Source: Thermomonas carbonis
GTDB taxonomy: Bacteria; Pseudomonadota; Gammaproteobacteria; Xanthomonadales; Xanthomonadaceae
Direction of reading: 5' to 3'
Assembly (NCBI RefSeq): GCF_014396975.1
Contig: NZ_CP060719.1
Span: 2,514,001-2,578,000 of the forward strand
Length of the DNA: 64,000 bases
Shown piece by piece: positions 19,997-48,278 of the stretch. A model generated the notes under the pieces. It made no database searches. It was given only the letters and a program-made list of their open reading frames with translations, and was not told the origin of the DNA. Each line of letters begins with the position of its first letter. Within the stretch, counting starts at the first letter, position 1. The position numbers and the translations under genes were made by a program.

Positions 19997-20178
19997 ACCG
20001 CTGACGCCGCGCTCTTTGCATGCGCAACTTGGACACAGTGCTCGCCTTGACACGCGAACCTGCCACTAGGCGGAGGCATAACGGGTTTGAGTTATGCCTG
20101 AGGCTGGGCGAGGGTAATTCAGGGAAGCTCTTGGGCTTGCGCCAACTGCTTTTGACAAAGGTCTTGCCGTCTGCGGTC
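19997..20178 (-). other. Gene-less cassette 15, family N4
   Basis: The central hairpin GGCATAAC-GGGTTTGA-GTTATGCC lies at 20075-20098. The motif GGGCGAG and a second hairpin AAGCTC/GGGCTT follow. Confidence 0.75.
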
Positions 20179-20280
20179 TAACGCCTGAGTTAAGCCGGGC
20201 CGCTTTGCGGCTTTTGGCGAGTGAAGATCATAGCGACTTACACGAGCCGCGAAGCGGTCTCGGCTTGAACGAATTGTTAG
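20179..20280 (-). repeat. attC 16, class III variant
   Basis: Arm CGGCTTTTGGCGAGTG...ACTTACACGAGCCG. Attached to cassette 16. Confidence 0.94.
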
Positions 20281-20286
20281 GCCGCT

Positions 20287-20574
20287 TCACGTCATGCAGA
20301 CGATAGCGTCTCCTTGCCGATAGCCCTCTGGAGTTGGCACGTAGAAGACATGGAATCCGTCGCAAACGTACTTCGACGAGCGCTTAGGGCACACGAGGTA
20401 CTCACCTTTAGCATTGGAGTACCAGAAACGGTCGAATGATGAAATCTGCAAGACCTGTTGCGGCACGTTGTCCGTGGGCATCCAGCCATCTTTCTGGAGG
20501 GAGAAATCACAATAGCCGGTCGTCTTGCAGCCGACGAGCAGCGTGATCATTGCTAGTAGAGAGAAGCGATTCAT
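20287..20574 (-). CDS. Small lipoprotein, cassette 16
   Basis: 95 aa. Lipoprotein signal MNRFSLLAMITLLVGC, then a short periplasmic domain with further cysteines (YCDFSLQ, LVCPKRSSKYVCDGF). ATG 20574. Function unknown. Confidence 0.7.
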   Translation of the reverse strand: MNRFSLLAMITLLVGCKTTGYCDFSLQKDGWMPTDNVPQQVLQISSFDRFWYSNAKGEYLVCPKRSSKYVCDGFHVFYVPTPEGYRQGDAIVCMT

Positions 20575-20588
20575 TCTTGGCAGCGGCC

Positions 20589-20690
20589 TAACGCCTGAGT
20601 TAAGACGGACCGCTGCGCGGAACGGCGGCGTGCTACACGCTAGCACGCAAGCCGAGCCGCGAAGCGGTCTCGGCTTGAACGAATTGTTAG
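20589..20690 (-). repeat. attC 17, class II
   Basis: Sits at the low end of the composite cassette 17, whose two ends are not complementary, so this site probably came from another cassette. Confidence 0.93.
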
Positions 20691-20707
20691 GCCTGAAACC
20701 GGTTCGG

Positions 20708-20777
20708 TCTGGGTTGATAGGTAACACTTTAGTCTGGGTTGATAGGTAACACTTTAGTCTGGGTTGATAGGTAACAC
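20708..20777. repeat. Triplicated terminal repeat of the IS481 element
   Basis: Three direct copies of a 20-base terminal sequence spaced by TTTAG. Confidence 0.9.
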
Positions 20778-20814
20778 ACCAACGATGATCGAGGGCACCC
20801 GAAGGAGGTGCCCC

Positions 20815-21990
20815 ATGCCTTGGAGTGAGACCTCAGCGATGGACGAGAAGGCGCGGTTTATTCGAGACTGGATAGCAGGTCATTGGTCGGTGACCGAGTT
20901 GTGTAGCCGCTATGGCGTGAGTCGGAAGACGGGTTACAAGTGGGCCGAGCGGTTTGCGCTTCAGGGGCCGGATGGGTTGTTGGATCAAGGGCATGCCCCG
21001 CGTCATTCGCCGCATCGCACGCCGGAAGCGACCGAGCAGGCACTGCTGGCGGTGCGGCTAAAGTACCCCCGGTGGGGTGCCAAGAAATTGCTGATCAAGG
21101 CGGCCAAGCAGTGGCCTGAGATGGTGTTGCCGCACCGGTCGACGGTCTGCGAGATCTTGCGTCGCAATCAATTGGTGGTTCCCCGTAGCAAGCGGCGTGG
21201 CATCGGCCACCCGGGCCGCCCGAGTGTTGAAGTCAAAGGCCCCAACGATTGTTGGAGCATCGATTTCAAAGGGCAATTCAAGACGTGCGATGGTCGTTAC
21301 TGCTACCCGCTGACCGTGACCGACAACTACAGCCGTTACCTGCTCGCATGCCAAGGAATGTCGGGGCCGTTGCTTGAGCCGACGCAAGCCGTACTGACGC
21401 GCCTGTTCAAGACGTTTGGACTGCCGCGGCGCATCCGAAGCGACAATGGAACGCCGTTTGCCGCCTATACCCTTGGGCGCTTGACCCGGTTGTCGGTGTG
21501 GCTGCTCAAGCTCGGCGTGATGCCCGAGTTGATCGAGCCTGGAAAGCCACAACAGAATGGCCGACATGAGCGCATGCACCGAACACTCAAGGACGGGACC
21601 ACTCACCCGCCTGGTGCGAACCTGCGTGCCCAACAGCGAAAGTTCAACCTGTTCATTCGTGAATTCAACGATGAGCGGCCGCACGAAGCATTGGACATGA
21701 AAACGCCAGCCGAGGTGTATCAGCCCTCGCCGCGTCCGATGCCGACGCGACTGCATGCTCCAACCTACCCGGATCGATTTGAAGTGCGCTACGTGAGCGC
21801 GAACGGTGGTATCCGCTGGAAGAGCAACTGGGTGAATGTGACGAGTGCCCTGATCGGTGAGTACGTCGGACTGGAAGAAATCGACGAAGGAATCTGGGAG
21901 GTGTACTTTGGATCAAAGCGACTGGGCCGCTTGCACGAACGCCTCATGCGGATTGAGGATTGCTACGGAATGACACGCAGACACGTGTAA
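20815..21990 (+). CDS. IS481-family transposase
   Basis: 391 aa from ATG 20815, preceded by GAAGGAGGTG. An N-terminal helix-turn-helix (WSVTELCSRYGVSRKTGYKW) precedes an rve catalytic core with WSIDFKGQF, RSDNGTPF and NGRHERMHRTLK supplying D, D and E. It appears intact. Confidence 0.95.
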   Translation: MPWSETSAMDEKARFIRDWIAGHWSVTELCSRYGVSRKTGYKWAERFALQGPDGLLDQGHAPRHSPHRTPEATEQALLAVRLKYPRWGAKKLLIKAAKQWPEMVLPHRSTVCEILRRNQLVVPRSKRRGIGHPGRPSVEVKGPNDCWSIDFKGQFKTCDGRYCYPLTVTDNYSRYLLACQGMSGPLLEPTQAVLTRLFKTFGLPRRIRSDNGTPFAAYTLGRLTRLSVWLLKLGVMPELIEPGKPQQNGRHERMHRTLKDGTTHPPGANLRAQQRKFNLFIREFNDERPHEALDMKTPAEVYQPSPRPMPTRLHAPTYPDRFEVRYVSANGGIRWKSNWVNVTSALIGEYVGLEEIDEGIWEVYFGSKRLGRLHERLMRIEDCYGMTRRHV

Positions 21991-22011
21991 CCCATCATCC
22001 CAGACTATTTG

Positions 22012-22344
22012 TTACCCATCACCCCGGTCACTCACTTGTCTGGAGCGCGAGGTCAGCTGTCCCTTGCGTAACAGGCGCTCTGAACGCATGACATGCACGA
22101 TAAAGACCTTGTGCCCGTCATGGCGGTAAAAGATACGGCAAGGTGGCTCCACTATTTGACGATAACGGGAGCGCGCGAGCTCTTGGGGACGGCTACCGCT
22201 GTCAGGATGGTCAACTAGTTGCTCAACGTGGCCGAAGACACGTTTGACGAGTTCAGCAGCCGCGACCGGATTCTCCAGAGCAATGAAGTCAGCAATTGCA
22301 TCAAGGTCCGCCAGTGCAGGCTCTGACCAGACTATTTCAGCCAT
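22012..22344 (-). CDS. RelE/ParE-type toxin with IS-derived C-terminus, cassette 17
   Basis: 110 aa. EIVWSEPALADLDAIADFIALENP, RYRQIVEPPCRIFYRHDG and VFIVHVMRSERLLRKG are typical of RelE/ParE toxins. The last residues and the TAA stop (22012) lie inside the IS481 right end, so the native tail has been replaced. It overlaps the antitoxin gene. Confidence 0.85.
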   Translation of the reverse strand: MAEIVWSEPALADLDAIADFIALENPVAAAELVKRVFGHVEQLVDHPDSGSRPQELARSRYRQIVEPPCRIFYRHDGHKVFIVHVMRSERLLRKGQLTSRSRQVSDRGDG

Positions 22345-22589
22345 CTGGCGAGGCGCTTCTTAGCTTGCGTGTGGGTCGCCGTGCGACCCTCAGCGATCGC
22401 CTGTTCTCCGCGGGCAATGCCTTCAAGGATGGCCATGCGTTGCTGCATGAGTTGATAGGTCTCAACGTCGAGCAGATAGGCGCTTGGCAGGCCATGCTGG
22501 GTAATGAGAATTGGCTCCTTATCCCGCTCGATATCGGAGAGGAGTTCAGTGGCCTGGCGCTTGAGCGTCGTGACGAGTTCGGTACGCAT
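22332..22589 (-). CDS. Phd/YefM-type antitoxin, cassette 17
   Basis: 85 aa: ELVTTLKRQATELLSDIERDKEPILITQHGLPSAYLLDVETYQLM is a YefM-like DNA-binding domain, followed by a helical toxin-binding tail. Direct TAGTG repeats lie just upstream in a possible promoter. Confidence 0.88.
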   Translation of the reverse strand: MRTELVTTLKRQATELLSDIERDKEPILITQHGLPSAYLLDVETYQLMQQRMAILEGIARGEQAIAEGRTATHTQAKKRLARWLK

Positions 22590-22642
22590 AAAGTGACACT
22601 ACAGTAGCACTATGACGCGCGCAAGTGGCCGGTGCAAAGACC

Positions 22643-22744
22643 TAACGCCTGAGTTAAGACGGACCGCTTTGCGGAACGGCGGCGTGCTACACGCTAGCAC
22701 GCAAGCCGAGCCGCGAAGCGGTCTCGGCTTGAACGAATTGTTAG
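22643..22744 (-). repeat. attC 18, class II
   Basis: Attached to cassette 18. Confidence 0.95.
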
Positions 22745-22953
22745 GCCGCACCCGCGCTACTTGGGCTGCAGCTCACCATGCCACCAGATGAGAGCAGAAC
22801 ACCAATGAGCAGCAGGCGGAAAGCGACCAAGAACTCGATCTTTCTTCCGCCATCGAATGCAAGAGGAATCGTCATGTTCCAGAGCCATTGCAGAAGCCTT
22901 GTCAGGATGATGATTAGAAGGAGGACGGCCGGAACGATGACGAAAATGGACAT
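22741..22953 (-). CDS. Small two-helix membrane protein, cassette 18
   Basis: 70 aa: IVPAVLLLIIILTRLLQWLW and FLVAFRLLLIGVLLSSGGM are membrane helices. Stop TAA from attC 18. Confidence 0.6.
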   Translation of the reverse strand: MSIFVIVPAVLLLIIILTRLLQWLWNMTIPLAFDGGRKIEFLVAFRLLLIGVLLSSGGMVSCSPSSAGAA

Positions 22954-22984
22954 CAGATCTCCTGTGACTATCTTGGCTGCGGCC

Positions 22985-23086
22985 TAACGCCTGAGTTAAG
23001 CCGGACCGATTTGCGGCGCGGCGGAGTGGTACACGTCACCGCGCAAGCCGAGCCGCGAAGCGGTCTCGGCTTGAACGAATTGCTAG
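22985..23086 (-). repeat. attC 19, damaged right box
   Basis: Class I-like but the box beside cassette 19 reads GCTAGGT instead of GTTAGGT, changing the invariant core beside the crossover point. Confidence 0.9.
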
Positions 23087-23290
23087 GTCACTCTGCAATG
23101 TGCGGCCAAGCGATTCAAGTGGGCGGCCCGGAACTCTGGTTGGGATGCGAAGGCCAAGGCGCGGATCAGCGCTTCAGCGCCCGCGCCGCAACACGCCACT
23201 TGGCAATGCCAGCGCTTGTAAAGCCGACACGAACCAACAAAGCAGGCCACTGAACTTGCGATGTTGATGACATGAAAACAACCCGAGACC
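23087..23290 (-). other. Cassette 19 without a convincing gene
   Basis: About 200 bases. The only minus-strand frame from an ATG is 35 codons (MSSTSQVQWPALLVRVG...). No similarity to families N1-N6 seen. Confidence 0.5.
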
Positions 23291-23391
23291 TAACGCCTGA
23301 GTTAAGCCGGACCGCTGCGCGGAACGGCGGAGTGGTACACGTCACCATGCAGCCGAGCCGCGAAGCGGTCTCGGCTTGAACGAATTGTTAG
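23291..23391 (-). repeat. attC 20, class I
   Basis: Attached to cassette 20. Confidence 0.95.
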
Positions 23392-23681
23392 GCTGCGCGC
23401 ATTTCAAGCTTTCCTACCCGATTGAGGTTGACGCTCTTCTTGGCCAGCCAAAGATCGTGGCTGTCCTGCATGGTCAGCCAACTCTCAGGGGAACGGCCGA
23501 TCGCTTTAGACAGCCGCAGTGCCATCTCAGGCGTAATGCGGCTAGACCCATTCAGCACGCGGCTCAGGGTCGATGCGGCAACGTCAAGCTTTGCAGCCAG
23601 CTCCCGACCACTGATGCCATTGGGTTCAAGATAAACGCCGGTGATGAACTCACCAGGATGCGGAGGGTTGTGCATTGCCAT
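23388..23681 (-). CDS. higA: HigA antitoxin, cassette 20
   Basis: 97 aa XRE-family protein: MHNPPHPGEFI then ISGRELAAKLDVAASTLSRVLNG is the classic HigA start and helix-turn-helix. Second gene of the pair; stop TAA from attC 20. Confidence 0.93.
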   Translation of the reverse strand: MAMHNPPHPGEFITGVYLEPNGISGRELAAKLDVAASTLSRVLNGSSRITPEMALRLSKAIGRSPESWLTMQDSHDLWLAKKSVNLNRVGKLEMRAA

Positions 23682-23959
23682 TAGTGATAGTCCTCGTAGT
23701 CGAGTACATAGACGTTTCCGTCCTTGAACTCAAAAGTCAGGCGCCAATTGCCATTGACCCAAATGGACCACCGACCTTTGAGTTTGCCTTTTAGTGGATG
23801 CAAGCCGAAGCCGGGGATGTCCATGTCGTCAATGACCTGAGCCGTGTCCAATGCAGCGAGCTGGAGCCTCAGGCGCTTGGCATGGCTGACTTGGACGCCG
23901 GCAGTGCTTCCACTCTCGAAGAGCTTGCCAAGGCCTTTGTGCCGGATCGTCTTGATCAT
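23681..23959 (-). CDS. higB: HigB toxin, cassette 20
   Basis: 92 aa RelE-superfamily mRNA interferase: MIKTIRHKGLGKLFESGS, then GLHPLKGKLKGRWSIWVNG and WRLTFEFKDG. Precedes higA in standard HigBA order. Confidence 0.93.
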   Translation of the reverse strand: MIKTIRHKGLGKLFESGSTAGVQVSHAKRLRLQLAALDTAQVIDDMDIPGFGLHPLKGKLKGRWSIWVNGNWRLTFEFKDGNVYVLDYEDYH

Positions 23960-23978
23960 GCCCGAAGTTTACCCAAAC

Positions 23979-23995
23979 GTTGCGTAGTGCGCAAC
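23979..23995. promoter_or_regulatory. Operator palindrome upstream of higB
   Basis: GTTGCG-TAGTG-CGCAAC, a perfect inverted repeat 20 bases before the higB start; likely HigA binding site. Confidence 0.65.
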
Positions 23996-24003
23996 ACGCA
24001 GCC

Positions 24004-24106
24004 TAACGCCTGAGTTAAGACGGGCCGCTTTGCGGCCTTGTGTAAGTGAAGATCATAGCGGCTTACACGAGGCCGCGAAGCGGTCTCGGCTTGAACGAAT
24101 TGTTAG
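24004..24106 (-). repeat. attC 21, class III variant
   Basis: Arm GGCCTTGTGTAAGTG. Attached to cassette 21. Confidence 0.94.
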
Positions 24107-24343
24107 ACCGCTGACCGAGACCCACGGGAAGAAAGCGACAAAGCCTGCACGTGTTGAAGCTGGTGCGACTGTTCCGATGACAAGCATAGCAATGGCCAGA
24201 AGACCGAAGCCGGAAGTTCTGAGGTCAAGCCCCCAAGTGACGTAAGACAGATAGCCGCAGGCAGCCATTGCGAGAAAGATGACAAGACAGATCAGCCTGG
24301 CAAAGGTGTCTGTTGTTTTTCCCGCGTTCTCTTGGTCTGCCAT
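24053..24343 (-). CDS. Two-helix membrane protein reading through into attC, cassette 21
   Basis: Same family as cassette 39: MADQENAGKTTDTFARLICL, two membrane helices, VAFFPWV. In cassette 39 a TAG follows PWV. Here the codon is TCG, so the frame runs on through attC 21 to a stop at 24053, adding about 20 attC-encoded residues. ATG 24343. Confidence 0.65.
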   Translation of the reverse strand: MADQENAGKTTDTFARLICLVIFLAMAACGYLSYVTWGLDLRTSGFGLLAIAMLVIGTVAPASTRAGFVAFFPWVSVSGLTIRSSRDRFAASCKPL

Positions 24344-24351
24344 CTGCGGTC

Positions 24352-24452
24352 TAACGCCTGAGTTAAGCCGGACCGCTGCGCGGAACGGCGGAATGGTACA
24401 CGTCACCATGCAGCCGAGCCGCGAAGCGGTCTCGGCTTGAACGAATTGTTAG
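24352..24452 (-). repeat. attC 22, class I
   Basis: Attached to cassette 22. Confidence 0.95.
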
Positions 24453-24455
24453 CGC

Positions 24456-24665
24456 TCACTTCCAGGACATATCCAACTTTCGATGAGAAGCGGCACAGTC
24501 ACGCAAGTACAGATTGATCAGGCTCTGATAGGGAATTCCCACTTCACCAGAGATAGTCTTGAAGTAGTCAATTGCTTCCTGGTCAAGCCTGAGCGTGATT
24601 TGCTTCTTAAGCAGGGACGCATAAGGATTCTTCTTTGCTTTGGAGAAGTCGTATTCTTTGCGCAT
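24456..24665 (-). CDS. brnA: BrnA antitoxin, cassette 22
   Basis: 69 aa: KEYDFSKAKKNPYASLLKKQITLRLDQEAIDYFK is the BrnA/CopG-like ribbon-helix-helix domain. Downstream of brnT. Confidence 0.93.
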   Translation of the reverse strand: MRKEYDFSKAKKNPYASLLKKQITLRLDQEAIDYFKTISGEVGIPYQSLINLYLRDCAASHRKLDMSWK

Positions 24666-24673
24666 ATTGATCC

Positions 24674-24952
24674 TCAGTACTGCAAAGTTTCCGTTCTTGT
24701 TGCTTTGCGAGCGGAAATGATCCGAATCACGTGATCAGCGCCACGGTAGCAGTGGCAGACGACGAGAAGCTTCATGGTTGAACTCAAGCCAAGAAGAATG
24801 AATCGATCCTCTTGCTCTGAGTGATCCGGGTCCGCCATGTATTTGCCATTCTCGTCGGCGAAGACGGAGCATGCTTCATCAAATGTGATGCCATGCTTCT
24901 TGGCGTTTGCCGAAGCTTTGGTGTCATGCCATTCGAAGCGAAGCTCGGTCAT
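24674..24952 (-). CDS. brnT: BrnT toxin, cassette 22
   Basis: 92 aa RelE-fold ribonuclease: FEWHDTKASANAKKHGITFDEA, DRFILLGLSSTMKLLVVCHCY and IRIISARKATRTE are BrnT hallmarks. Confidence 0.95.
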   Translation of the reverse strand: MTELRFEWHDTKASANAKKHGITFDEACSVFADENGKYMADPDHSEQEDRFILLGLSSTMKLLVVCHCYRGADHVIRIISARKATRTETLQY

Positions 24953-24958
24953 GTCGAG

Positions 24959-24987
24959 AATGTAACTACAAAGTAGCTACGCGTCAA
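24959..24987 (-). promoter_or_regulatory. Promoter and operator of brnTA
   Basis: On the minus strand TTGACG and TACATT are separated by 17 bases; the spacer holds the repeated half-sites GTAGCTAC and GTAGTTAC, suited to BrnA autoregulation. Confidence 0.75.
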
Positions 24988-24996
24988 CATGAGCGC

Positions 24997-25097
24997 TAAC
25001 GCCTGAGTTAAGCCGGACCGCTGCGCGGAACGGCGGAGTGGTACACGTCACCATGCAGCCGAGCCGCGAAGCGGTCTCGGCTTGAACGAATTGTTAG
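24997..25097 (-). repeat. attC 23, class I
   Basis: Attached to cassette 23. Confidence 0.95.
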
Positions 25098-25537
25098 CCC
25101 GCAGACTCACATGCTTCACTGATCTTTACTTGGTACTCGATGACAGCTGACTCTTGAGTGATCTCTGTCTTGCTGCATTGAATCAGGAACGGTCTCTTTG
25201 CGCCCGCAGGAATAGGGCCAATGAGTCGCGTTTCACATTCATTGACTTGTGACCCTGGCTTTCCAATCGTTGCGGAAATCACAGCATCACGCCACTCGAG
25301 GTTTGAAGAATTGTGGGCCACGCCAAAGATGGCCACTTGATCCACGTCTGGAACGAGATTGTGCCTGTCAATAGCGAGTCCTGCTGGTGCGGTCTTGCAG
25401 GGGTCATGTACGGGAGCGCTGGATTGCATGTCCTTCATGTACTGCCTCTCCGCGTACAACATGAAGCCGAAGACGGTGGCTGCAATAAGTGCGATCGTGA
25501 TTATTGCGCCGAGGACGGAGATGAGAAGTTGCTTCAT
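25094..25537 (-). CDS. Membrane-anchored periplasmic protein, cassette 23
   Basis: 147 aa: N-terminal membrane helix (LISVLGAIITIALIAATVFGF), then a beta-rich domain with three cysteines. Stop TAA from attC 23. Function unknown. Confidence 0.65.
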   Translation of the reverse strand: MKQLLISVLGAIITIALIAATVFGFMLYAERQYMKDMQSSAPVHDPCKTAPAGLAIDRHNLVPDVDQVAIFGVAHNSSNLEWRDAVISATIGKPGSQVNECETRLIGPIPAGAKRPFLIQCSKTEITQESAVIEYQVKISEACESAG

Positions 25538-25543
25538 GCGGGC

Positions 25544-25646
25544 TAACGCCTGAGTTAAGCCGCACCGATTTGCGGCGTTGTGCGAGTGAAGATTAGCAAG
25601 ACTCGCACGACGCCGCGAAGCGGTGTCGGCTTGGACGAATTGTTAT
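25544..25646 (-). repeat. attC 24, class IV
   Basis: Attached to cassette 24. Confidence 0.95.
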
Positions 25647-25862
25647 GCGCCTGATCCAGTTGGTGAACCCGGCGAGCTGAAGTGATCTTAAGCCCGCGAA
25701 GATCGGGATGCGATTGCCACATCACGAAAGACAGGGCAATAGGCGGTGCGGATCTGCTTTTGCTAACGAACAACTGCACTCAGCCAACACCAGACCGCCG
25801 AACCAGAACACGATCACTGTTGCCCGAAAAAAATCGAAGAGCTCTTTGCGTTTGACCGCGCA
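25647..25862 (-). other. Gene-poor cassette 24, family N2
   Basis: N2 body with the pseudoknot-capable core around 25672-25708. Followed directly by another N2 cassette. Confidence 0.75.
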
Positions 25863-25965
25863 TAACGCCTGAGTTAAGCCGCACCGATTTGCGGCGTTGT
25901 GCGAGTCAAGATTAGCAAGACTCGCACGACGCCGCGAAGCGGTGTCGGCTTGGACGAATTGTTAT
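25863..25965 (-). repeat. attC 25, class IV
   Basis: Attached to cassette 25. Confidence 0.95.
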
Positions 25966-26181
25966 GCGCCTGATCCAGTGGGTGAACCCAGCGAGCTGAA
26001 GTGATCTTAAGCCCGCGAAGATCGGGATGCGATTGCCACATCACGAAAGACAGGGCGGTAGGCGGTGCGGATCTGCTTTTGCCAACGAACAACTGCACTC
26101 AGCCAACACCAGACCGCTGAACCAGAACACGATCACTGTTGCCCGAAAAAAATCGAAATGCTCTTTGCGTTTGACCGCGCA
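25966..26181 (-). other. Gene-poor cassette 25, family N2
   Basis: Tandem neighbour of cassette 24 and nearly identical to it; the core lies around 25990-26027. Confidence 0.75.
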
Positions 26182-26282
26182 TAACGCCTGAGTTAAGCCG
26201 GACCGCTGCGCGGAACGGCGGAGTGGTACACGTCACCATGCAGCCGAGCCGCGAAGCGGTCTCGGCTTGAACGAATTGTTAG
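26182..26282 (-). repeat. attC 26, class I
   Basis: Attached to cassette 26. Confidence 0.95.
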
Positions 26283-26290
26283 ATCTCACC

Positions 26291-26521
26291 CTAGTCACCT
26301 AGGAAATCAATGATGCGGGTGCCGGTGCCAAGCTTCTTGTTGTAGAACTCCGTGTACCCACATTTGCCACACGAAACGAATGTAAAGCGCTCAGTGGCAA
26401 AGTCAAAGAACGATGAGATTAGTCCACCAGATGCGCGGAACTCGCCTGTCTTACGCTCAGTTGATCCGCATTTCTTGCAGGGCTTGATGCGTGGTGTATA
26501 TTCGGTCTGGATTTCAATCAC
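26291..26521 (-). CDS. Small zinc-ribbon protein, cassette 26
   Basis: 76 aa from GTG 26521. Two CxxC knuckles (CKKCGSTERKTG and VSCGKCGYTEFYN) form a zinc ribbon. Likely nucleic-acid or protein binding; role unknown. Confidence 0.75.
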   Translation of the reverse strand: MIEIQTEYTPRIKPCKKCGSTERKTGEFRASGGLISSFFDFATERFTFVSCGKCGYTEFYNKKLGTGTRIIDFLGD

Positions 26522-26545
26522 GTTGCGAAAATTCCGAGTGAGATC

Positions 26546-31715: not shown

Positions 31716-31721
31716 GGCACC

Positions 31722-41518: not shown

Positions 41519-41527
41519 ACATGCGCT

Positions 41528-41959
41528 CTAGATTGGGCATGTCAGCTCTTCAACATATGTGTCTATTACATCCCCGCCAGAATTGATCCAGACGTGGATT
41601 CCCTGACTGCAAGTGCCATGCATATTCAGCGTTGCCTCGTCTCCGTAGTAGAACGTGACTTGACGATATGGCACACCTAGTGACCTGACTAGCGTCTCTC
41701 CGTAGAGCATCAGTGAGGCACGAGGAGTAGCGAGTGTGGGGAACTTGGCTTTTAGCTGCCCCGTTAAGTCGCTGGTGGTCGCGCGGACAACCATTTGCAC
41801 GTCTGGCGAGAGCGACGAGTAGTTGATCTCCTCAAACGCCGGTGCAACATTCACGGGTAGTGCGATGGGCTCCGGCACTGGTTTGGGACTATTTGAGGCA
41901 CACGATGCGGAAGAGATTCCAATCGTAGCTACCAAAAGAGCCGAAATGGCTGTGCGCAT
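41528..41959 (-). CDS. Lipoprotein, cassette 62
   Basis: 143 aa: signal ISALLVATIGISSASC, Pro-rich linker, soluble domain (VTFYYGDEATLNMHGTCSQG). Unknown. Confidence 0.68.
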   Translation of the reverse strand: MRTAISALLVATIGISSASCASNSPKPVPEPIALPVNVAPAFEEINYSSLSPDVQMVVRATTSDLTGQLKAKFPTLATPRASLMLYGETLVRSLGVPYRQVTFYYGDEATLNMHGTCSQGIHVWINSGGDVIDTYVEELTCPI

Positions 41960-41962
41960 GTC

Positions 41963-42063
41963 TAACGCCTGAGTTAAGCCGGACCGCTGCGCGGAACGGC
42001 GGAGTGGTACACGTCACCATGCAGCCGAGCCGCGAAGCGGTCTCGGCTTGAACGAATTGTTAG
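41963..42063 (-). repeat. attC 63, class I
   Basis: Attached to cassette 63. Confidence 0.95.
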
Positions 42064-42085
42064 GCAGCGCCCGCTCCAGAAGTTG

Positions 42086-42406
42086 TCAATCCCGCTTGTC
42101 TTCATGCTGCTGCGCTCGCCGTTCCTGAATGAGCCTATCAAGAAATGGCTTCATAGCGATCCATGATTGAGTAGCTGCGCCGCGTTCACCGCCGCGTGGA
42201 ACAAGTGGCGATTGAGGCGAGGACTCCTCATGTATGAACCAGTAGAGCAGTAGACCCACAAAAGGAATAACAAGTAGCGCAGCCCCGACGAACTTTTCAG
42301 CGACGCTATTTGATCCTCTTAGAAGTTTGACCAACAGAACGAGGCTCGCGATGCTCGTAAGCACGAAAACCGCGATCAGGACATTCTGTTCAAGTGGAGA
42401 GAGCAT
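42086..42406 (-). CDS. Two-helix membrane protein (PLDc_N-like), cassette 63
   Basis: 106 aa: VLIAVFVLTSIASLVLLVKLL and VGAALLVIPFVGLLLYWFI; the second helix resembles PLDc_N-type membrane modules. Polar C-terminus. Confidence 0.6.
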   Translation of the reverse strand: MLSPLEQNVLIAVFVLTSIASLVLLVKLLRGSNSVAEKFVGAALLVIPFVGLLLYWFIHEESSPQSPLVPRGGERGAATQSWIAMKPFLDRLIQERRAQQHEDKRD

Positions 42407-42428
42407 GAGAGTCTCGATCTGCGCTGCC

Positions 42429-42531
42429 TAACGCCTGAGTTAAGCCGCACCGATTTGCGGCGTTGTGCGAGTGAAGATTAGCAAGACTCGCACGACGCCG
42501 CGAAGCGGTGTCGGCTTGGACGAAATGTTAG
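42429..42531 (-). repeat. attC 64, class IV
   Basis: Attached to cassette 64. Confidence 0.95.
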
Positions 42532-42740
42532 CGCGGTGCGTAGTCACAGTGGTTCAGATCGCGTCCCTGATTGCATCCTGGCCGTCGAAGCTGGCGTTCG
42601 GTCAGGGCCAGCCGCCGCTTTTCCCGAGAACCAATGCCTGGAGAAGATCGACAGTTGCTGATCGCGAGCACTTTCGGGGAGGGCGGGAGCCAGCACAAAT
42701 TTTCTAAGAGCAGGTTCCGTGAACTCGTTCTACCCCGCGC
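42532..42740 (-). other. Gene-poor cassette 64, family N1
   Basis: N1 copy nearly identical to cassette 74; the frame ends LALTERQLRRPGCNQGRD...CDYAPR. Confidence 0.72.
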
Positions 42741-42845
42741 TAACGCCTGAGCTAAGCCGGGCCGCTTTGCGGCCTTGGCGATGGTCAAATCATAGCCGGC
42801 CAGCGCCGAGGCCGCGAAGCGGGCTCGGCTTGAGCGAATTGTTAG
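42741..42845 (-). repeat. attC 65, class V
   Basis: Attached to cassette 65. Confidence 0.94.
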
Positions 42846-43075
42846 GCCGCTGTTGCCTGGTAGATGTAATAGCCGCCAATGCCAACTGCCAGCCAGAACA
42901 GTAGACCAACAATTGCGGATTCAGTTTCGCTGGGCGCAGGCTTTGGTTTGATCATGCGGATCAATGCATAGCCAGTGCTTTTGATCAGCAGCTCGAAGAA
43001 GACTTCAACCAGGATGCGACCCAGAACACGGAAGACTCCAACGATTGCGTCACCTGCGAGATCCCCGAGTGGCAT
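42842..43075 (-). CDS. Small membrane protein, cassette 65
   Basis: 77 aa: amphipathic N-terminus (GVFRVLGRILVEVFFELLIK) and a C-terminal helix (IVGLLFWLAVGIGGYYIY). Stop TAA from attC 65. Confidence 0.65.
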   Translation of the reverse strand: MPLGDLAGDAIVGVFRVLGRILVEVFFELLIKSTGYALIRMIKPKPAPSETESAIVGLLFWLAVGIGGYYIYQATAA

Positions 43076-43094
43076 GAGATTCCTGTAAGCGGCC

Positions 43095-43195
43095 TAACGC
43101 CTGAGTTAAGCCGGACCGCTGCGCGGAACGGCGGAGTGGTACACGTCACCATGCAGCCGAGCCGCGAAGCGGTCTCGGCTTGAACGAATTGTTAG
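43095..43195 (-). repeat. attC 66, class I
   Basis: Attached to the three-gene cassette 66. Confidence 0.95.
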
Positions 43196-43206
43196 GCCAC
43201 AACTCG

Positions 43207-43401
43207 TTATTTTTGCTCGACCCGTTTCACTGTGAATGTGTAGTCAACATAACTTGGGTGCTGAGATCGAAGCTTGCCTTCAGCTATTTTGGCGGCCATA
43301 AAATCTGACTCCGATTCAACCGTTGTGTTTAATGTGGTTCCGCTATTAGTTTTCTTGCTTCGAATGTCGAAGGTAACTCGATATGTGCTCATGTATTTCA
43401 T
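43207..43401 (-). CDS. Small beta-rich protein, third gene of cassette 66
   Basis: 64 aa: YRVTFDIRSKKTNSGTTLNT and HPSYVDYTFTVKRVEQK suggest a small beta-sheet protein. The codons are AT-richer than neighbours. Unknown. Confidence 0.65.
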   Translation of the reverse strand: MKYMSTYRVTFDIRSKKTNSGTTLNTTVESESDFMAAKIAEGKLRSQHPSYVDYTFTVKRVEQK

Positions 43402-43458
43402 CCAGTCGGTAAAATATTGAAGCGGGGTCTGGTCTGCTACTTGATTCTCTATTACGAA

Positions 43459-43719
43459 TCACTTCTTCCTTGACTGCCTTTCTGCAGTCTTTGCAATGGC
43501 TTCCGGTAGCTCTTCGAGTATCTTAAAGCCAAGCTTTCCGGAGAATATCACCGTGTTGAACAAGCCTTTCCCGATGAGTTTTGCGCTTTGTGCGGCCGTT
43601 TCTTTTACGCCAGTTGCTAGTGATACTTCATCGACTGCATCGCTTAGGTCGTAGTAGAGTTTGCTCTTGAATACGCTTTCATCTTCATTGGGATCGGAGT
43701 TGTTCATGTATTTCTCCAT
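43459..43719 (-). CDS. Small helical protein, second gene of cassette 66
   Basis: 86 aa (80 or more from the inner ATG MNNSDPNEDE): acidic start, central helix ETAAQSAKLIGKGLFNTVIF, basic tail AERQSRKK. Unknown. Confidence 0.65.
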   Translation of the reverse strand: MEKYMNNSDPNEDESVFKSKLYYDLSDAVDEVSLATGVKETAAQSAKLIGKGLFNTVIFSGKLGFKILEELPEAIAKTAERQSRKK

Positions 43720-43789
43720 GTTTGAATTGGCTCGTACGAGGTGTAATGAATCGTCTTTTATCTAGCATCTCACGGGTAGAGATGTTTTG

Positions 43790-44074
43790 CTATTTCTTGA
43801 ATTGACCTTTCGACCATCGGTAAGCAAGTGAAATAAGAACTAGAGCGCCGATTGCTCTTGGAGTTATCCTAAGAGACAAGTACATCCATATAGCGCTGAA
43901 GTAATAGAAAGACGATCCTGGATCTTCTCGTATTCTTGCGAATATCCCAATTGCTGTAATTACTAGAAAGCTGACTCCAAGAAGTAGTAGCCATACTACG
44001 GTTAGTATTCTTAGGGGGCGCGTTAAAATGGCTAGGCAGACTATGGTTGCCAGGATTCCTAATAAAATTGGCAT
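43790..44074 (-). CDS. Membrane protein, first gene of cassette 66
   Basis: 94 aa, two to three membrane helices (ILLGILATIVCLAILTRPL, ILTVVWLLLLGVSFLVITAIG) and an Arg/Lys-rich end. Heads a three-gene cassette of about 890 bp. Confidence 0.68.
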   Translation of the reverse strand: MPILLGILATIVCLAILTRPLRILTVVWLLLLGVSFLVITAIGIFARIREDPGSSFYYFSAIWMYLSLRITPRAIGALVLISLAYRWSKGQFKK

Positions 44075-44092
44075 GATGGTTTGATTGTGGCC

Positions 44093-44195
44093 TAACGCCT
44101 GAGTTAAGACGGACCGCTTCGCGGCTCGGCTTGCGTGCTACACGCTAGCACGCAAGCCGAGCCGCGAAGCGGTCTCGGCTTGAACGAATTGTTAG
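44093..44195 (-). repeat. attC 67, class II variant
   Basis: Arm GGCTCGGCTTGCGTGCTACACGC. Attached to cassette 67. Confidence 0.93.
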
Positions 44196-44482
44196 AGGGG
44201 TGACCAGTGCCGCTCAACTGGGAACTCCAACGGCTCATTCCATCTGGCGCGGTATGTAGGGTCTTTTGCGATCTTGCGAAGACGGTCCCTAAGCTTCGAT
44301 ACGTGCAGAGACTCAGCGGCTGAGAACCTAACTACGCCGGTCTCCGTTTTATCTTGATTCCAGAAGAGAATGCGTTGAGCGTGCTGACCGTCGACAGTCC
44401 CGTGCCATACGAGAAAGTGCCAAGCGGTGCCATCAGGTCCCTGGAGTGGGCCGTCCAGTCCCTGTCCGCGCCACCAAGTCAT
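44192..44482 (-). CDS. Hypothetical soluble protein, cassette 67
   Basis: 96 aa, aromatic-rich (MTWWRGQGLDGPLQGPDG, WHFLVWHGTVDGQ). ATG 44482; stop TAA from attC 67. Unknown. Confidence 0.65.
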   Translation of the reverse strand: MTWWRGQGLDGPLQGPDGTAWHFLVWHGTVDGQHAQRILFWNQDKTETGVVRFSAAESLHVSKLRDRLRKIAKDPTYRARWNEPLEFPVERHWSPL

Positions 44483-44492
44483 GACACCCCTC

Positions 44493-44594
44493 TAACGCCT
44501 GAGTTAAGCCGGGCCGCTTTGCGGCTTTTGGCGAGTGAAGATCATAGCGACTTACACGAGCCGCGAAGCGGTCTCGGCTTGAACGATTAGTTAT
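44493..44594 (-). repeat. attC 68, class III variant, atypical right spacer
   Basis: Spacer CGATTAGTTATGC instead of CGAATTGTTATGC. Attached to cassette 68. Confidence 0.9.
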
Positions 44595-44800
44595 GCGCCT
44601 GACTCAGTCGGTGAACCCGGCGGGCTGAAGCGATCTTAAGCCCGCGAAGATCGGAATGCGAAGGTCACTTCACGAAAGCTAGGTTGCTGGGTGGCAACGA
44701 AAGCCACCTCTGTCAGCCGCAACGATCGATCAAAGGGGAATTTCAGATCGCATTGCAGGTGAGTTCAACTCAAAGAATCCAGGTTACGCGTGACCACGCA
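44595..44800 (-). other. Gene-poor cassette 68, family N2
   Basis: Divergent N2 body. The pseudoknot arms are fully paired, while the coding frame seen in other copies is interrupted upstream of the core, favouring a non-coding role. Confidence 0.72.
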
Positions 44801-44903
44801 TAACGCCTGAGTTAAGCCGGGCCGCTTTGCGGCCTTGGGCAAGTGAAAATCAATGGTACTTGCACGAGGCCGCGAAGCGGGCTCGGCTTGAACGAATTGT
44901 TAG
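44801..44903 (-). repeat. attC 69, class III
   Basis: Attached to cassette 69. Confidence 0.95.
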
Positions 44904-45120
44904 ACCGGTGCCAGCCGTTGCTTTTGACCAACGAACCAGTCAGACCTGAGTCTAGTGCCGACAACCGCTCTTTGCGAGATGTCGAACACAGAAACGGAGT
45001 GCCGGCCGCTCTAGCCGGTACGGAGTTTGTGGCGAGGCTCAAAAGCCTCGGATAGGCGAGGGCCAACGGCTCCGAGACGGGCTTCACGCTTGCTGGCCGG
45101 CCTTTGTTTCTGGACCGGTC
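44904..45120 (-). other. Gene-less cassette 69, family N3
   Basis: CGGAG-framed hairpin near 44995-45026 with one C-to-T change that leaves a G.T pair on the + strand. Confidence 0.74.
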
Positions 45121-45223
45121 TAACGCCTGAGTTAAGCCGCACCGATTTGCGGCGTTGTGCAAGTGAAGATTAGCAAGACTTGCACGACGCCGCGAAGCGG
45201 TGTCGGCTTGGACGAATTGTTAT
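45121..45223 (-). repeat. attC 70, class IV
   Basis: Attached to cassette 70. Confidence 0.95.
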
Positions 45224-45437
45224 GCGCCTGATGCAGTGGGTGAACCCGGCGGGCTGAAGTGATCTTAAGCCCGCGAAGATCGGGATGCGATTGCCACATC
45301 ACGAAAGACAGGCCGGTAGGCGGTGCGTATCTGCCTTTTCCAACGAACAACTGCACACAGCCAACACCAAACCACTGAATTGCAACTTGGTCACTGTTGC
45401 CAAAAAAATCGGAAAGCTCTTTGCGTTTGACCGCGCA
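45224..45437 (-). other. Gene-poor cassette 70, family N2
   Basis: N2 body with fully paired arms (GCGGGCT/AGCCCGC) around 45249-45285. Confidence 0.74.
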
Positions 45438-45538
45438 TAACGCCTGAGTTAAGCCGGACCGCTGCGCGGAACGGCGGAGTGGTACACGCCACCATGCAGC
45501 CGAGCCGCGAAGCGGTCTCGGCTTGAACGAATTGTTAG
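45438..45538 (-). repeat. attC 71, class I
   Basis: Attached to cassette 71. Confidence 0.95.
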
Positions 45539-46074
45539 CCTTCTTTCTTGACCATTGACATGGACGCCATAGCCTGTGCAGTAGCTTTGCTGCTGGTGGA
45601 AGTAGTCAATACGAACAACAGTTCAGAAGCGTCTGCTGGGCGAGACCAAGTGTATGCAATGGTCTTAGTTTCATCGGTGTTTGGACCGAGTCCAGTTGTA
45701 CTAGCCAACTTGGCAATGAGCGGGCTCGGTGCGCTCTGAACAAGATCGTAGAAGCCAGACTGCGTGCGCTTCTGATCCGCTTGTTGTGCAAAGACCGAGC
45801 ACACTGAGTCACTCCTGAGCGAGACAACATATCGAGTCCCGGAGGTCACGATGATCCAGGCGGTTCCCGAGCCACCGCCAAGGAAGAACTCAGCTTGATC
45901 GCCCGCCAGAGTCTCAAAGCCTTCCTTCTTCATGTTCTCTCGCAGCTTGTCCTGCGAGTAGAAATTCTGCATGCATGTTGAAGCGAAGATCGCGTTGAAC
46001 GTGTCTGGCGTTGACGGCTCTGCTGAAAGCGCGGAGGAAGTTGCAAGCAAGCTTAGAAGTATCAAGTGGCGCAT
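45535..46074 (-). CDS. Secreted protein (NMCC_0638-like), cassette 71
   Basis: 179 aa with a signal peptide (LILLSLLATSSALSAE): FNAIFASTCMQNFYSQDKL, then GTAWIIVTSGTRYVVSLRS. It resembles the NMCC_0638 (lipo)protein family. Stop TAA from attC 71. Confidence 0.6.
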   Translation of the reverse strand: MRHLILLSLLATSSALSAEPSTPDTFNAIFASTCMQNFYSQDKLRENMKKEGFETLAGDQAEFFLGGGSGTAWIIVTSGTRYVVSLRSDSVCSVFAQQADQKRTQSGFYDLVQSAPSPLIAKLASTTGLGPNTDETKTIAYTWSRPADASELLFVLTTSTSSKATAQAMASMSMVKKEG

Positions 46075-46091
46075 ATGTGTCCAAAGAAGGC

Positions 46092-46194
46092 TAACGCCTG
46101 AGTTAAGCCGCACCGATTTGCGGCGTTGTGCAAGTGAAGATTAGCAAGACTTGCACGACGCCGCGAAGCGGTGTCGGCTTGGACGAATTGTTAG
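46092..46194 (-). repeat. attC 72, class IV
   Basis: Attached to cassette 72. Confidence 0.95.
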
Positions 46195-46403
46195 CGCGGT
46201 GCGTAGTCAGATTGGCTCAGGTCGCCAACTCCATTGCATCACGGCCGTCGAAACTGGCGTTCGGTCAGGGCCAGCCACCGCTTTTCCCGAGAACCAATGC
46301 CTGTAGAAGATCGTGACTTGGCGATTGCGAGCAATCTCGGAGAAGGCAGGAACCCGCACAAATTTTCTAAGAGCAAGTTCCGTGAACTCGTTCTACCCCG
46401 CGC
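46195..46403 (-). other. Gene-poor cassette 72, family N1
   Basis: N1 copy in which the conserved minus-strand frame is cut by a TGA after RRP, so no N1 peptide can be made here. Confidence 0.74.
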
Positions 46404-46505
46404 TAACGCCTGAGTTAAGCCGGACCGCTGCGCGGCACGGCGTGATGGTACACGTCACCATTTAAGCCGAGCCGCGAAGCGGTCTCGGCTTGAACGAATT
46501 GTTAG
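46404..46505 (-). repeat. attC 73, class VI
   Basis: Attached to cassette 73. Confidence 0.94.
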
Positions 46506-46890
46506 GCCCCGGCGCGGTGAACTGACACTGCCAGAGCCAGCGATTCTGCAGAATAGTCCAAGTCGTGCGGCATTAGCTCAAAGTGGAAGTGATGCCCGTC
46601 TCTGGCGTCCTCTGGAAAGAAGAAGCAACTTGCAAGCTCCTCAAGTCGTTCAGGAGTGGCTGATATGCGAAGAGCGTTGCCTTGAACCGACACCGAAGTT
46701 TCAGAGCCTTGAGTCACTGTGATCTCCGCCAAAGCGCGATCATATGGCGCTGGATCATGTCTCAAAGCTGGAACGGTAAATGAAGTCGAAGCCAAAAGCT
46801 TCAGAGCTCTGATTGTGAGCCCAATTTCTCTAAGATCAGCGACGCTGCCGCTGATGTCGATTTCATTCTGCGAGGCGGAAATGGCGATTA
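46502..46890 (-). CDS. Hypothetical protein lacking a standard start, cassette 73
   Basis: About 125 codons open from the cassette end (IIAISASQNEIDISGSVADL, LEELASCFFFPEDARDGHHF) to the attC 73 TAA. No ATG, GTG or TTG is available upstream of the conserved-looking start; ATT or ATC may serve. It looks like a soluble beta-alpha protein. Confidence 0.5.
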
Positions 46891-46906
46891 TGGTTGGAAA
46901 GGGGCC

Positions 46907-47009
46907 TAACGCCTGAGTTAAGCCGCACCGATTTGCGGCGTTGTGCAAGTGAAGATTAGCAAGACTCGCACGACGCCGCGAAGCGGTGTCGGCTTGGACG
47001 AAATGTTAG
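46907..47009 (-). repeat. attC 74, class IV
   Basis: Attached to cassette 74. Confidence 0.95.
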
Positions 47010-47218
47010 CGCGGTGCGTAGTCACAGAGGCTCAGATCGCGTCCCTGATTGCATCCTGGCCGTCGAAACTGGCGTTCGGTCAGGGCCAGCCGCCGCTTTT
47101 CCCGAGAACCAATGCCTGGAGAAGATCGACAGTTGCTGATCGCGAGCACTTTCGGGGAGGGCGGGAGCCAGCACAAATTTTCTAAGAGCAGGTTCCGTGA
47201 ACTCGTTCTACCCCGCGC
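47010..47218 (-). other. Gene-poor cassette 74, family N1
   Basis: Near-copy of cassette 64. Confidence 0.72.
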
Positions 47219-47319
47219 TAACGCCTGAGTTAAGCCGGACCGCTGCGCGGAACGGCGGAGTGGTACACGTCACCATGCAGCCGAGCCGCGAAGCGGTCTC
47301 GGCTTGAACGAATTGTTAG
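47219..47319 (-). repeat. attC 75, class I
   Basis: Attached to cassette 75. Confidence 0.95.
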
Positions 47320-47329
47320 GCGGCGGCAA

Positions 47330-47357
47330 TTGACGTTCGTACCTATTTAGGTACAAT
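47330..47357 (+). promoter_or_regulatory. Promoter and operator of the cassette 75 TA pair
   Basis: Same TTGACG/TACAAT pair and GTACCTA-TT-TAGGTAC palindrome (47339-47354) as in cassette 1. Confidence 0.8.
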
Positions 47358-47363
47358 GCGCCC

Positions 47364-47705
47364 ATGCCACCCATCTTGTCAGTTCGTTTCTACTGTACGA
47401 CAACAGGCAATGAGCCTGTCCGCGATTGGCTGTTAGCGCAAGTCTCACCAGGCGCCAGAAAGGCGATTGGTGCAGACATCAAGACAGTTCAGTTTGGGTG
47501 GCCGATAGGAATGCCGGTTGTACGCAAGATGGAATCAGGCCTTTGGGAAGTTCGGAGCAATATTCCGGAGGGAATTGCCCGAGTGCTTTTCACGATAGTT
47601 GGCGCAGACATGGTGTTGCTGCATGGTTTTGTAAAGAAGACACAAGCCACACCAAAGGCGGATCTCGCTTTGGCACAAACCCGAATGAAAGAGGTGAGAG
47701 CGTGA
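47364..47705 (+). CDS. RelE/HigB-type toxin, cassette 75
   Basis: 113 aa, identical to the cassette 1 toxin; inverted relative to the cassette direction. Confidence 0.85.
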   Translation: MPPILSVRFYCTTTGNEPVRDWLLAQVSPGARKAIGADIKTVQFGWPIGMPVVRKMESGLWEVRSNIPEGIARVLFTIVGADMVLLHGFVKKTQATPKADLALAQTRMKEVRA

Positions 47706-47992
47706 GCAAGAGCAAGCACATTGGTAGTGACTTTGATGCTTTCCTGGCTGAGCAAGGCGAGCTTGAAGAGGCAACTGCGATTGCCGTTAAGCGTGTGATT
47801 GCCTGGCAGATTGAGCAGGCGATGCAAACGACTGGCGTGAATAAGAGCGCTTTGGCTAAACGCATGCACACAAGCAGAACGGTCGTAGATCGGATGCTAG
47901 ATGCGACTGACACGGGGCTGACGCTCGAGACCATGACAAGGGCAGCAACTGCTCTTGGGTTCAGGGTGCGAGTGGATTTGGTAGCCGCCTAA
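47702..47992 (+). CDS. HigA-type antitoxin, cassette 75
   Basis: 96 aa from GTG 47702, identical to the cassette 1 antitoxin; stop TAA in attC 76. Confidence 0.85.
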   Translation: MSKSKHIGSDFDAFLAEQGELEEATAIAVKRVIAWQIEQAMQTTGVNKSALAKRMHTSRTVVDRMLDATDTGLTLETMTRAATALGFRVRVDLVAA

Positions 47993-48092
47993 CGCCTGAG
48001 TTAAGCCGCACCGATTTGCGGCGTTGTGCGAGTGAAGATTAGCAAGACTTGCACGACGCCGCGAAGCGGTGTCGGCTTGGACGAATTGTTAG
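47990..48092 (-). repeat. attC 76, class IV
   Basis: Attached to cassette 76. Confidence 0.95.
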
Positions 48093-48278
48093 CCCGCTGA
48101 AGCCGGCTGTTCTTGCAGATTGGAAGCTTAAGTGGGTTCATTTGAAGCCAAGAAATCTTCCACCGCGCGGAGTTGTAGCGGGTTTGAGGTGCGACGGAGC
48201 GCGGGCGAGAGGCGATCAGGGAAGCTTTTCGGGCTTTGCCGAGAATGCTCTAAGCGATGATCCATTTCTTCTGCGGGC
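48093..48278 (-). other. Gene-less cassette 76, family N6
   Basis: Hairpin GTTGTAGC-GGGTTTGA-GGTGCGAC at 48172-48195. The second hairpin carries two T.G pairs (AAGCTT/GGGCTT). Confidence 0.75.

Follow-up and report, generated by a model that had tools for sequence, protein, structure and literature searches.

Cassettes of an integron array in Thermomonas carbonis probably carry many copies of a putative small non-coding RNA with a conserved structure. Our results point to a candidate new family of small non-coding RNAs in the arrays of one Lysobacter-related group. The window analyzed here is a stretch of 64,000 nucleotides (contig NZ_CP060719.1, positions 2,514,001 to 2,578,000), and all coordinates below refer to it.

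Hairpin cassettes of the array

The integron cassette array occupies positions 12852..64000 and continues past the window to a window-relative position of about 112590. The cassette sense was taken as the minus strand, and integrase remnants are located at the right end of the array, outside the window. The whole array contains 26 hairpins, and 73 were found among the 479 cassettes of five genomes of the genus, in three of which the hairpin is multi-copy. The hairpins have a common plan of an outer stem, a symmetric GGA/GGA internal loop, an 8-bp inner stem, and an apical loop of 6-8 nt, which would form the conserved core of the putative RNA. Families A, D, and F have little in common beyond this plan; outside the core, their cassettes are modular and vary with the family. 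As in other integron cassettes, the hairpin cassettes are bounded by attC sites, and each has its own attC with R and L boxes. The class of a cassette was poorly predicted from attC similarity, with a clear attC split seen only in genome G000. In addition, the high-copy ORF-less families B, C, G, and K lack the GGA hairpin.

The initial annotation described a hairpin with the loop GGGTTTGA in seven separate cassettes, and all seven were recovered, each loop lying between the claimed arms. The loop occurs on the plus strand at 20083, 28817, 30790, 35646, 39103, 39931, and 48180, and this count of seven compares with a shuffle mean of 1.51 (at least seven in 0 of 100 shuffles). These family A copies occupy separate cassettes that are bounded by attC sites and have bodies of 186-199 bp; the cassettes are numbered 16, 33, 37, 48, 56, 58, and 75 in our re-analysis (15, 32, 36, 48, 56, 58, and 76 before). 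The arms GGCATAAC/GTTATGCC were present as claimed in four plus-strand cores, at 20063..20114 (cassette body 19993-20178), 28797..28848 (28726-28912), 30770..30821 (30699-30886), and 39911..39962 (39842-40040). The core at 39083..39134 (+; body 39011-39203) indeed has the compensatory stem GGCATATT/AATATGCC at 39095-39118, with two pairs altered on both sides. The stems at 35638 and 48172, which had been described as paired by G.T with one mismatch, have the arms GTTGTAGC/GGTGCGAC with two T.G wobbles and one G.G mismatch; they belong to subfamily A2, with plus-strand cores at 35626..35677 (body 35555-35744) and 48160..48211 (body 48089-48278).

Across the 11 copies of family A in this array the loop is indeed constant, as had been stated, but in relatives it is not. 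Relatives have the loop variants GGGTTTCA, GGGTTTTA, and AGGTCCGC, and the loops of the sister families are CGCTTTGT, GCTCTCA, and GCTCTA. Moreover, a second ORF-less family of the same architecture, family D, contributes four further plus-strand hairpins to the window that had been overlooked. Their cores are located at 19392..19441 (arms GTGCCGGC/GCCGGCAC; cassette body 19304-19525), 28492..28541 (28402-28624), 34061..34110 (33973-34194), and 44987..45037 (one G.T pair; 44900-45120).

Covariation of the hairpin core

The covariance model has a length of 52 positions, and covariation was scored on 40 of the 52 distinct cores, near-identical ones having been thinned by hand; in one 11-row alignment, row A58 was shortened on the 3' side. 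Consensus folds of the full bodies were also computed, but their long-range pairs were distrusted, and our claim is restricted to the hairpin core. In the 40 cores, 99.0% of the inner-helix cells were paired, seven of the eight pairs were changed on both sides, and a single position could show as many as four pair types. When the structure was taken as a whole, 87.5% of the cells were paired, compared with 24-42% when the partners were slid by 1-3 columns. The covariation score was 0.655, compared with 0.06-0.17 for the slid partners, and was reached in 0 of 500 shuffles. Two other measures were equaled by shuffles, namely pairs changed on both sides (109/500) and further pair types (464/500).

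A tree-aware null of our own design, with 60 null alignments, was applied to 57 sequences, comprising all 52 distinct cores and five from genomes outside the model. In this larger alignment the stem of the initial annotation held up, with three inner-stem pairs at E ≤0.05: 17-32 and 19-30 (E 0.0) and 14-35 (E 0.05). Pair 16-33 had an E of 0.2, and the inner pairs 18-31, 20-29, and 15-34 were not significant. Five of the six top-scoring column pairs were structural, although the non-structural pair 19-32 outscored the structural pair 14-35. These data support the inner stem as a conserved pairing kept by compensatory change. The outer helix was paired in 72.9% of cells in the 40 cores, and none of its pairs was significant in the tree-aware null, so the case for an outer stem is weak.

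The pairing could also have been inherited from one ancestor by passive non-coding filler that was spread by recombination and has no present function. The copies do appear mosaic by eye, with interchangeable flanks, and when the 10 genomes of the genus that have 20 or more attC-like sites are compared, five carry the hairpin and five lack it. However, mere inheritance does not fit an inner stem that stays almost fully paired through so many pair types, with structural pairs heading the covariation list after 242 substitutions on the tree. We consider passive filler improbable.

Strand, folding and coding capacity

The hairpin is formed by the strand that opposes the cassette sense: a mismatch-neutral scan found 32 G.T cells and no A.C cell. 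The G.T pairs occupy 9 distinct positions across 7 stem types. When 129 short cassettes were scanned in the same neutral way, 73 matches were found on the hairpin strand (2 of them spurious) and none on the other. Common descent would fix the hairpin strand without any involvement of RNA.

In RNA folding of four representatives, the consensus inner stem was formed in every case, whereas DNA folding lost it in family F. The A2 stem had a probability of 0.87 as plus-strand RNA, 0.03 as minus-strand RNA, and 0.48 as plus-strand DNA. Families A and D folded equally well on the other strand (0.99 and 0.95 as minus-strand RNA), so their strand is argued by the G.T pairs alone. For family F, the inner-stem probability in context was 0.46 as RNA and 0.30 as DNA, and its folding was no better than that of shuffles (z -0.16).

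These values also bear on whether the hairpin acts as single-stranded DNA on the bottom strand, aiding cassette capture, excision, or protection, so that hairpin cassettes multiply. The integrase folds the bottom strand at attC sites, and all 73 hairpins are on the strand bearing the folded attC. In G000, G237, and G212, the families with more than three copies are ORF-less except for one loosely linked cluster, and the clear ORF families reach at most three copies. Good folds as single-stranded DNA were also obtained for families A and D. On the other hand, the DNA optimum of family F lacks the inner stem, the A2 stem loses much of its probability as DNA, G.T pairs are costly in DNA, and 406 of the 479 cassettes have no hairpin, yet are still cassettes. 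This explanation is possible but fairly unlikely in our judgment, and both the test of strands and the comparison of folds favor RNA over single-stranded DNA without settling the choice.

A related and rather doubtful idea is that these are structure-dependent non-coding cassettes whose bottom-strand hairpin, either as RNA read towards the integrase or as single-stranded DNA in its folded form, favors its own capture and raises its own copy number. They would then be parasites of the integron, like the MITEs of transposons, and the ORF-less families B, C, G, and K would be other examples of this lifestyle.

A short protein-coding gene is very improbable. Of the 73 hairpin cassettes, 15 contained an ORF that starts with ATG and has at least 60 aa, both strands being considered, compared with 4.9% of shuffles. 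In 13 of these, all of them family D cassettes of G237, the ORF has 61-82 aa and runs on the hairpin strand, and 12 shared a near-identical 61-aa frame. Some minus-strand frames also stayed open from one end of the body to the other in a portion of the copies, for example in 11 of 19 family D copies of G237. However, the hairpin-strand ORF was absent from 6 of those 19 copies, and G000 and G212, with 22 family D copies in total, had no plus-strand ORF of that size in any of them. There was no family in which a single frame ran open through the body of every copy, and families differed in which frame was the most open. In family D of G000, 9 copies have an apical loop of 6 nt and 6 copies one of 7 nt, and the body lengths cover all residues modulo 3. 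The initial annotation had called the element a structured RNA or a functional single-stranded DNA hairpin rather than a gene. A base-paired element is borne out by the inner-stem covariation, the matches outside the model, and the lack of a frame conserved over the copies, but the invariant loop does not survive as its signature.

Transcription, related systems and distribution

The putative RNA would be read from the plus strand of the window, towards the integrase end and against the cassette sense, and therefore presumably also against the array promoter Pc. We infer that the hairpin cassettes are transcribed, that the hairpin may be the part recognized by a protein or by a second RNA, and that the copies may be retained for dosage or through self-amplification. 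A consensus scan, which does not exclude a promoter, found no sigma-70-like promoter in any of the window's 11 hairpin cassettes, and promoter-like sites were not enriched in two scanned stretches (8 found, 6.3 expected; 2 found, 6.5 expected). No terminator-like site (a T run after a stem) started from the window hairpins on the plus strand. Two minus-strand sites of this kind overlap the A2 cores at their 5' edge (35637-35625 and 48171-48159), and the totals were below expectation. A CsrB/RsmZ-type GGA sponge for a CsrA-type protein was ruled out, since the bodies contain a mean of 3.4 GGA (2 to 7), compared with 4.1 expected. Rfam 15 gave no match at the gathering score in the window, nor in the single 20 kb stretch searched from each of G237 and G212.

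Gene-less cassettes of Vibrio and Treponema are, like ours, ORF-less members of integron arrays, and the available text of the two reports describes them as promoters and mentions no conserved covarying structure (PMC11014356, PMC6557892). The hairpin cassettes might likewise be double-stranded DNA driving their neighbors, the hairpin being incidental or a 5' leader. The Vibrio cassettes are reported to have promoter activity that is mostly directed along the sense strand (PMC11014356), and a recurring 'empty' Xanthomonas cassette has been proposed as a promoter (PMC12444791). The latter resembles ours in being ORF-less with several copies per array, and the accessible text gives it without sequence or structure, so it can be compared by description only (PMC12444791). 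A promoter would leave the compensatory changes unexplained, and the window's 11 hairpin cassettes contain no promoter-like site, although in-silico prediction is reported to fail for such promoters (PMC11014356). We regard a promoter cassette as unlikely.

The preferred reading, a cassette-borne RNA, has a parallel in Xanthomonas. According to the available text of the reports, sRNA-Xcc1 was detected by Northern analysis (PMC2996969) and is cassette-borne and opposed to Pc (PMC12444791). It is thus a structured non-coding RNA in integron cassettes, opposite to the cassette sense, a status that is predicted for the hairpin here. Identity with sRNA-Xcc1 was rejected by its Rfam model (RF02221), whose sole match in the genome scored 20.6 bits, below the cut-off and outside the integron. 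Conversely, the hairpin model gave a single match of 12 bits (E 0.7) against six RF02221 loci. RF02221 was found in 42 of 149 family genomes and in 0 of the five genus genomes listed. Four of the six fetched loci contained attC, and in those four RF02221 was on the strand opposite to the cassette sense, as is the hairpin here. The attC sites themselves are also imperfect hairpins, which share this strand and adjoin the cassette ends; however, the hairpin has no attC boxes by eye, and the cassette's own attC is separate and adjoining. A search of the open-licence PMC literature, limited to the text available there, found no description of the hairpin, which does not show that it is unpublished.

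The hairpin was found in 9 of 375 family genomes and in 6 of 25 genus genomes. When 348 genomes of the order and 274 of the class were sampled, the source genome was the only one with the hairpin. In the four genomes outside the model it always adjoined attC sites, and new matched stems were found in G329 (GGCGTATT/AATACGCC) and G189 (GGTGCGGC/GCTGCACC). A scan of named genomes gave one record, the Lysobacter MAG contig JAJAYW010000197.1, whose first 300 bases are identical to the locus of G023, a member of the window's family; NCBI places Lysobacter in Lysobacteraceae. Plasmids gave no match to two cassettes used as queries, and viral contigs gave none to two patterns.

ORF-less cassettes have mostly been dismissed as empty or taken for promoters. 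Our results indicate that, among the most-copied cassettes of three large arrays, some keep an RNA-like stem under selection, opposite to the cassette sense. Whether the hairpin works as RNA or as single-stranded DNA, the 52-position covariance model makes the question testable. If it is active as single-stranded DNA, it would offer a new handle on cassette capture. If the hairpin cassettes are transcribed, integrons would also be a mobile store of non-coding RNAs.

Hairpin families and their spread among genomes

All seven hairpins claimed by the initial annotation were confirmed as reported when checked against the sequence. Four additional copies of this family (family A) lie past the window in the array of the same genome (G000), giving 11 cassettes with bodies of 186-199 bp. 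The initial annotation overlooked family D, a second ORF-less family of this array with 15 copies (215-223 bp), built as outer stem, GGA, GTGCCGGC, loop, GCCGGCAC, GGA and outer stem followed by GCGA, which is the plan of family A in different letters. A third family, F, is the biggest in the array of the relative G212; its 16 copies have the inner stem GGCGCGGC/GCTGCGCC or one G.T variant, and GTA in place of the second GGA. One more F-like cassette, G212_27, was not captured by the hairpin pattern because of GTG. At E 1e-3, the best blastn alignment between families was 20 nt (A-D), and no A-F or D-F alignment was obtained. Together, the cassettes of five genomes contain 73 hairpins in 479 cassettes (G000, 26/208; G237, 22/129; G212, 23/89; G249, 1/49; G150, 1/4).

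The covariance model of family A (R1) matched 5 of 296 genomes of the taxonomic family, every one in the genus of the window. The 52-position core model (R2) matched 9 of 375 at E 0.05; six of these nine belong to the 25 listed genus genomes, and the others, G023, G189, and G229, represent three other genera. In the four matching genomes outside the R2 model (G329, G023, G189, and G229), the matches adjoin attC sites. New matched stems were found in G329 and G189, another G.T version of the F stem in G229, and two tandem D-type hairpins in a single cassette of G023 (a Lysobacter MAG; locus 192-314). With strict filters, R2 recovered only the source genome in the overlapping order and class samples (1/348 and 1/274 genomes, respectively). 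Within the genus, the hairpin is present in G000, G237, G212, G249, and G150 and absent from G225, G260, G051, G299, and G280 despite their 89, 70, 56, 25, and 22 attC-like sites, and this uneven presence argues against universality. In G260, switching the filters off still gave no credible match (the top one scored 10.7 bits, E 2.7). Arrays may be missing from draft assemblies.

Pairing, strand and molecule

In family A alone (11 sequences), 95.8% of cells were paired and 6 of 13 pairs had both-side changes, a count matched in 16 of 500 shuffles. When 40 distinct A, D, and F sequences were taken together, pairing reached 99.0% in the inner helix, with both-side changes at 7 of 8 pairs, and 87.5% in the full structure vs 24-42% with slid partners. 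The paired percentage and covariation score were reached by 0 of 500 shuffles, the double-change pair count by 109, and the pair-type count by 464. The outer helix was 72.9% paired, and its support is weak. We also applied a tree-aware null to 57 sequences, using our own script modelled on R-scape rather than R-scape itself; it reassigns every branch's substitutions to random columns (60 nulls). Core columns 17-32 and 19-30 gave E 0.0, followed by 14-35 (E 0.05), 16-33 (E 0.2), and 15-34 (E 3.25). The closing pairs 13-36 and 9-40 scored zero because covarying change was absent. Structural pairs were five of the six strongest column pairs, with the non-structural pair 19-32 ranking third. Covariation was significant for the pairs 17-32, 19-30, and 14-35 of the inner stem (E<=0.05) and not for 18-31, 20-29, or any outer pair.

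The strand was scanned with every mismatch kind weighted equally, yielding 32 G.T, 0 A.C, 5 G.G, and 4 C.T cells, the last all from two spurious matches. No short cassette had the motif on the opposite strand; among 350 long cassettes, 15 matched on the + strand (2 real) and 7 on the - strand (none convincing). In the 73 hairpins, G.T occurred at 9 distinct positions over 7 stem types, and under strand equality the chance of zero A.C is about 0.002 by positions and about 0.008 by stem types. These counts settle the strand, not which molecule is involved.

The initial annotation had offered a structured RNA or a functional single-stranded DNA hairpin. In the folding of four representatives (the third with an erroneous last base), RNA parameters recovered the consensus inner stem in 4/4, and DNA parameters lost the family F stem and weakened that of A2, a subfamily of A; the RNA fold of family F was not better than its own shuffles (z -0.16). 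Mean inner-stem probabilities with 30-nt flanks in 67 contexts were, as RNA/DNA on the + strand, 0.97/0.97 for D, 1.00/0.97 for A, 0.87/0.48 for A2, and 0.46/0.30 for F; the other strand as RNA gave 0.95, 0.99, 0.03, and 0.39, respectively. These predictions lean towards RNA on the + strand, chiefly via A2 and F.

Coding potential and copy number of ORF-less cassettes

No family has a frame open across the body in all copies. The loop of family D in G000 is 6 or 7 nt long, which shifts the frame, and body lengths represent all residues modulo 3. However, a + strand ORF of 61-82 aa occurs in 13 of 19 family D copies of G237; it was not found in the 22 copies of G000 and G212. Judged from sequence, the hairpin cassettes are not evidently genes.

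In G000, G237, and G212, families with more than 3 copies are ORF-less, except one loosely linked G000 cluster (6 cassettes, bodies 210-822 bp), and no clear ORF family exceeds 3 copies. The multi-copy hairpin families have 15, 11, 19, 17 (16 with hairpins), and 6 copies, and the hairpin-less ORF-less ones 14, 7, and 7. In addition, one family makes up 24 of the 70 cassettes of hairpin-less G260 (bodies 272-275 bp; one member embedded in a 638 bp body). Of 24 bodies measuring 270-276 bp, 23 have no ATG ORF longer than 19-47 aa. The attC sites of G260 are evenly spaced by 373 bases, suggesting tandem runs. Since G260 also amplified one family, amplification is not a special property of the hairpin.

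Among multi-copy ORF-less families that lack the GGA hairpin, G000 has B in 14 copies (for example window 14790-15002), C in 7 or 8, and E in 3, and G237 has G in 7. In G000, the attC class of ORF-less cassettes differs from that of ORF cassettes, GTGAA-type own attC being found in 20/26 hairpin, 24/30 other short ORF-less, and 22/138 ORF cassettes. Identical attC sites are common to A2 and B. The bottom-strand motif GCTYTT(T)GC, noted in ORF-less cassettes of the window, G237, G249, G212, and G260, occurs in 38/73 hairpin cassettes, 19/43 other short ORF-less cassettes, and 23/24 G260 bodies of 270-276 bp (other strand: 1, 0, and 0), and 363 other cassettes lack this strand bias (23 vs 24).

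Array orientation and possible function

The G000 assembly is a single 3.46 Mb contig (window at G000:C1:2514001-2578000). By attC pattern scan, the chromosomal integron array extends from about 12852 beyond the window to window-relative 112590 or so, with 212 attC-like sites (two-mismatch pattern) split into 208 cassettes. An IS481-type transposase ORF (Pfam rve, LZ_Tnp_IS481) lies within a cassette at 20764-21990. At the right end, window-relative 113190-115258, are two + strand tyrosine recombinase frames, both partial as called. In the first (113190-114020), the catalytic domain match is limited to positions 3-84 of 172; the second (114587-115258), as called, has no N-terminal domain. Because both match only part of the protein, the array may be inactive at present. 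Read on the + strand, the attC sites are reverse-complemented relative to textbook ones. From this and the recombinase remnants at the right end, we assign cassette sense and reading from the array promoter Pc to the minus strand and treat + as the bottom one. This call is supported by the left-hand attC in G000, which tracks body class; the right-hand attC does not.

The closest precedent is sRNA-Xcc1, a Northern-confirmed sRNA (PMC2996969) that is reported to be carried by integrons, to be oriented against Pc, and to be switched on by T3SS regulators (PMC12444791). Model searches identify the hairpin as a different RNA. Promoter-bearing gene-less cassettes have been described (PMC11014356, PMC6557892, PMC8876359), and mention is made of a recurring empty cassette in Xanthomonas (PMC12444791).

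The data establish the pairing of the inner stem, its strand, its linkage to cassettes, its multi-copy state, and the lack of a frame common to all copies. Transcription would start inside the cassette and run toward the integrase end. The GGA/GGA loop could adopt sheared G.A pairs, as (GGA)2 motifs do. A CsrA sponge was unsupported by GGA counts. The hairpin might serve as a recognition module in these integrons, with its action exerted through dosage.
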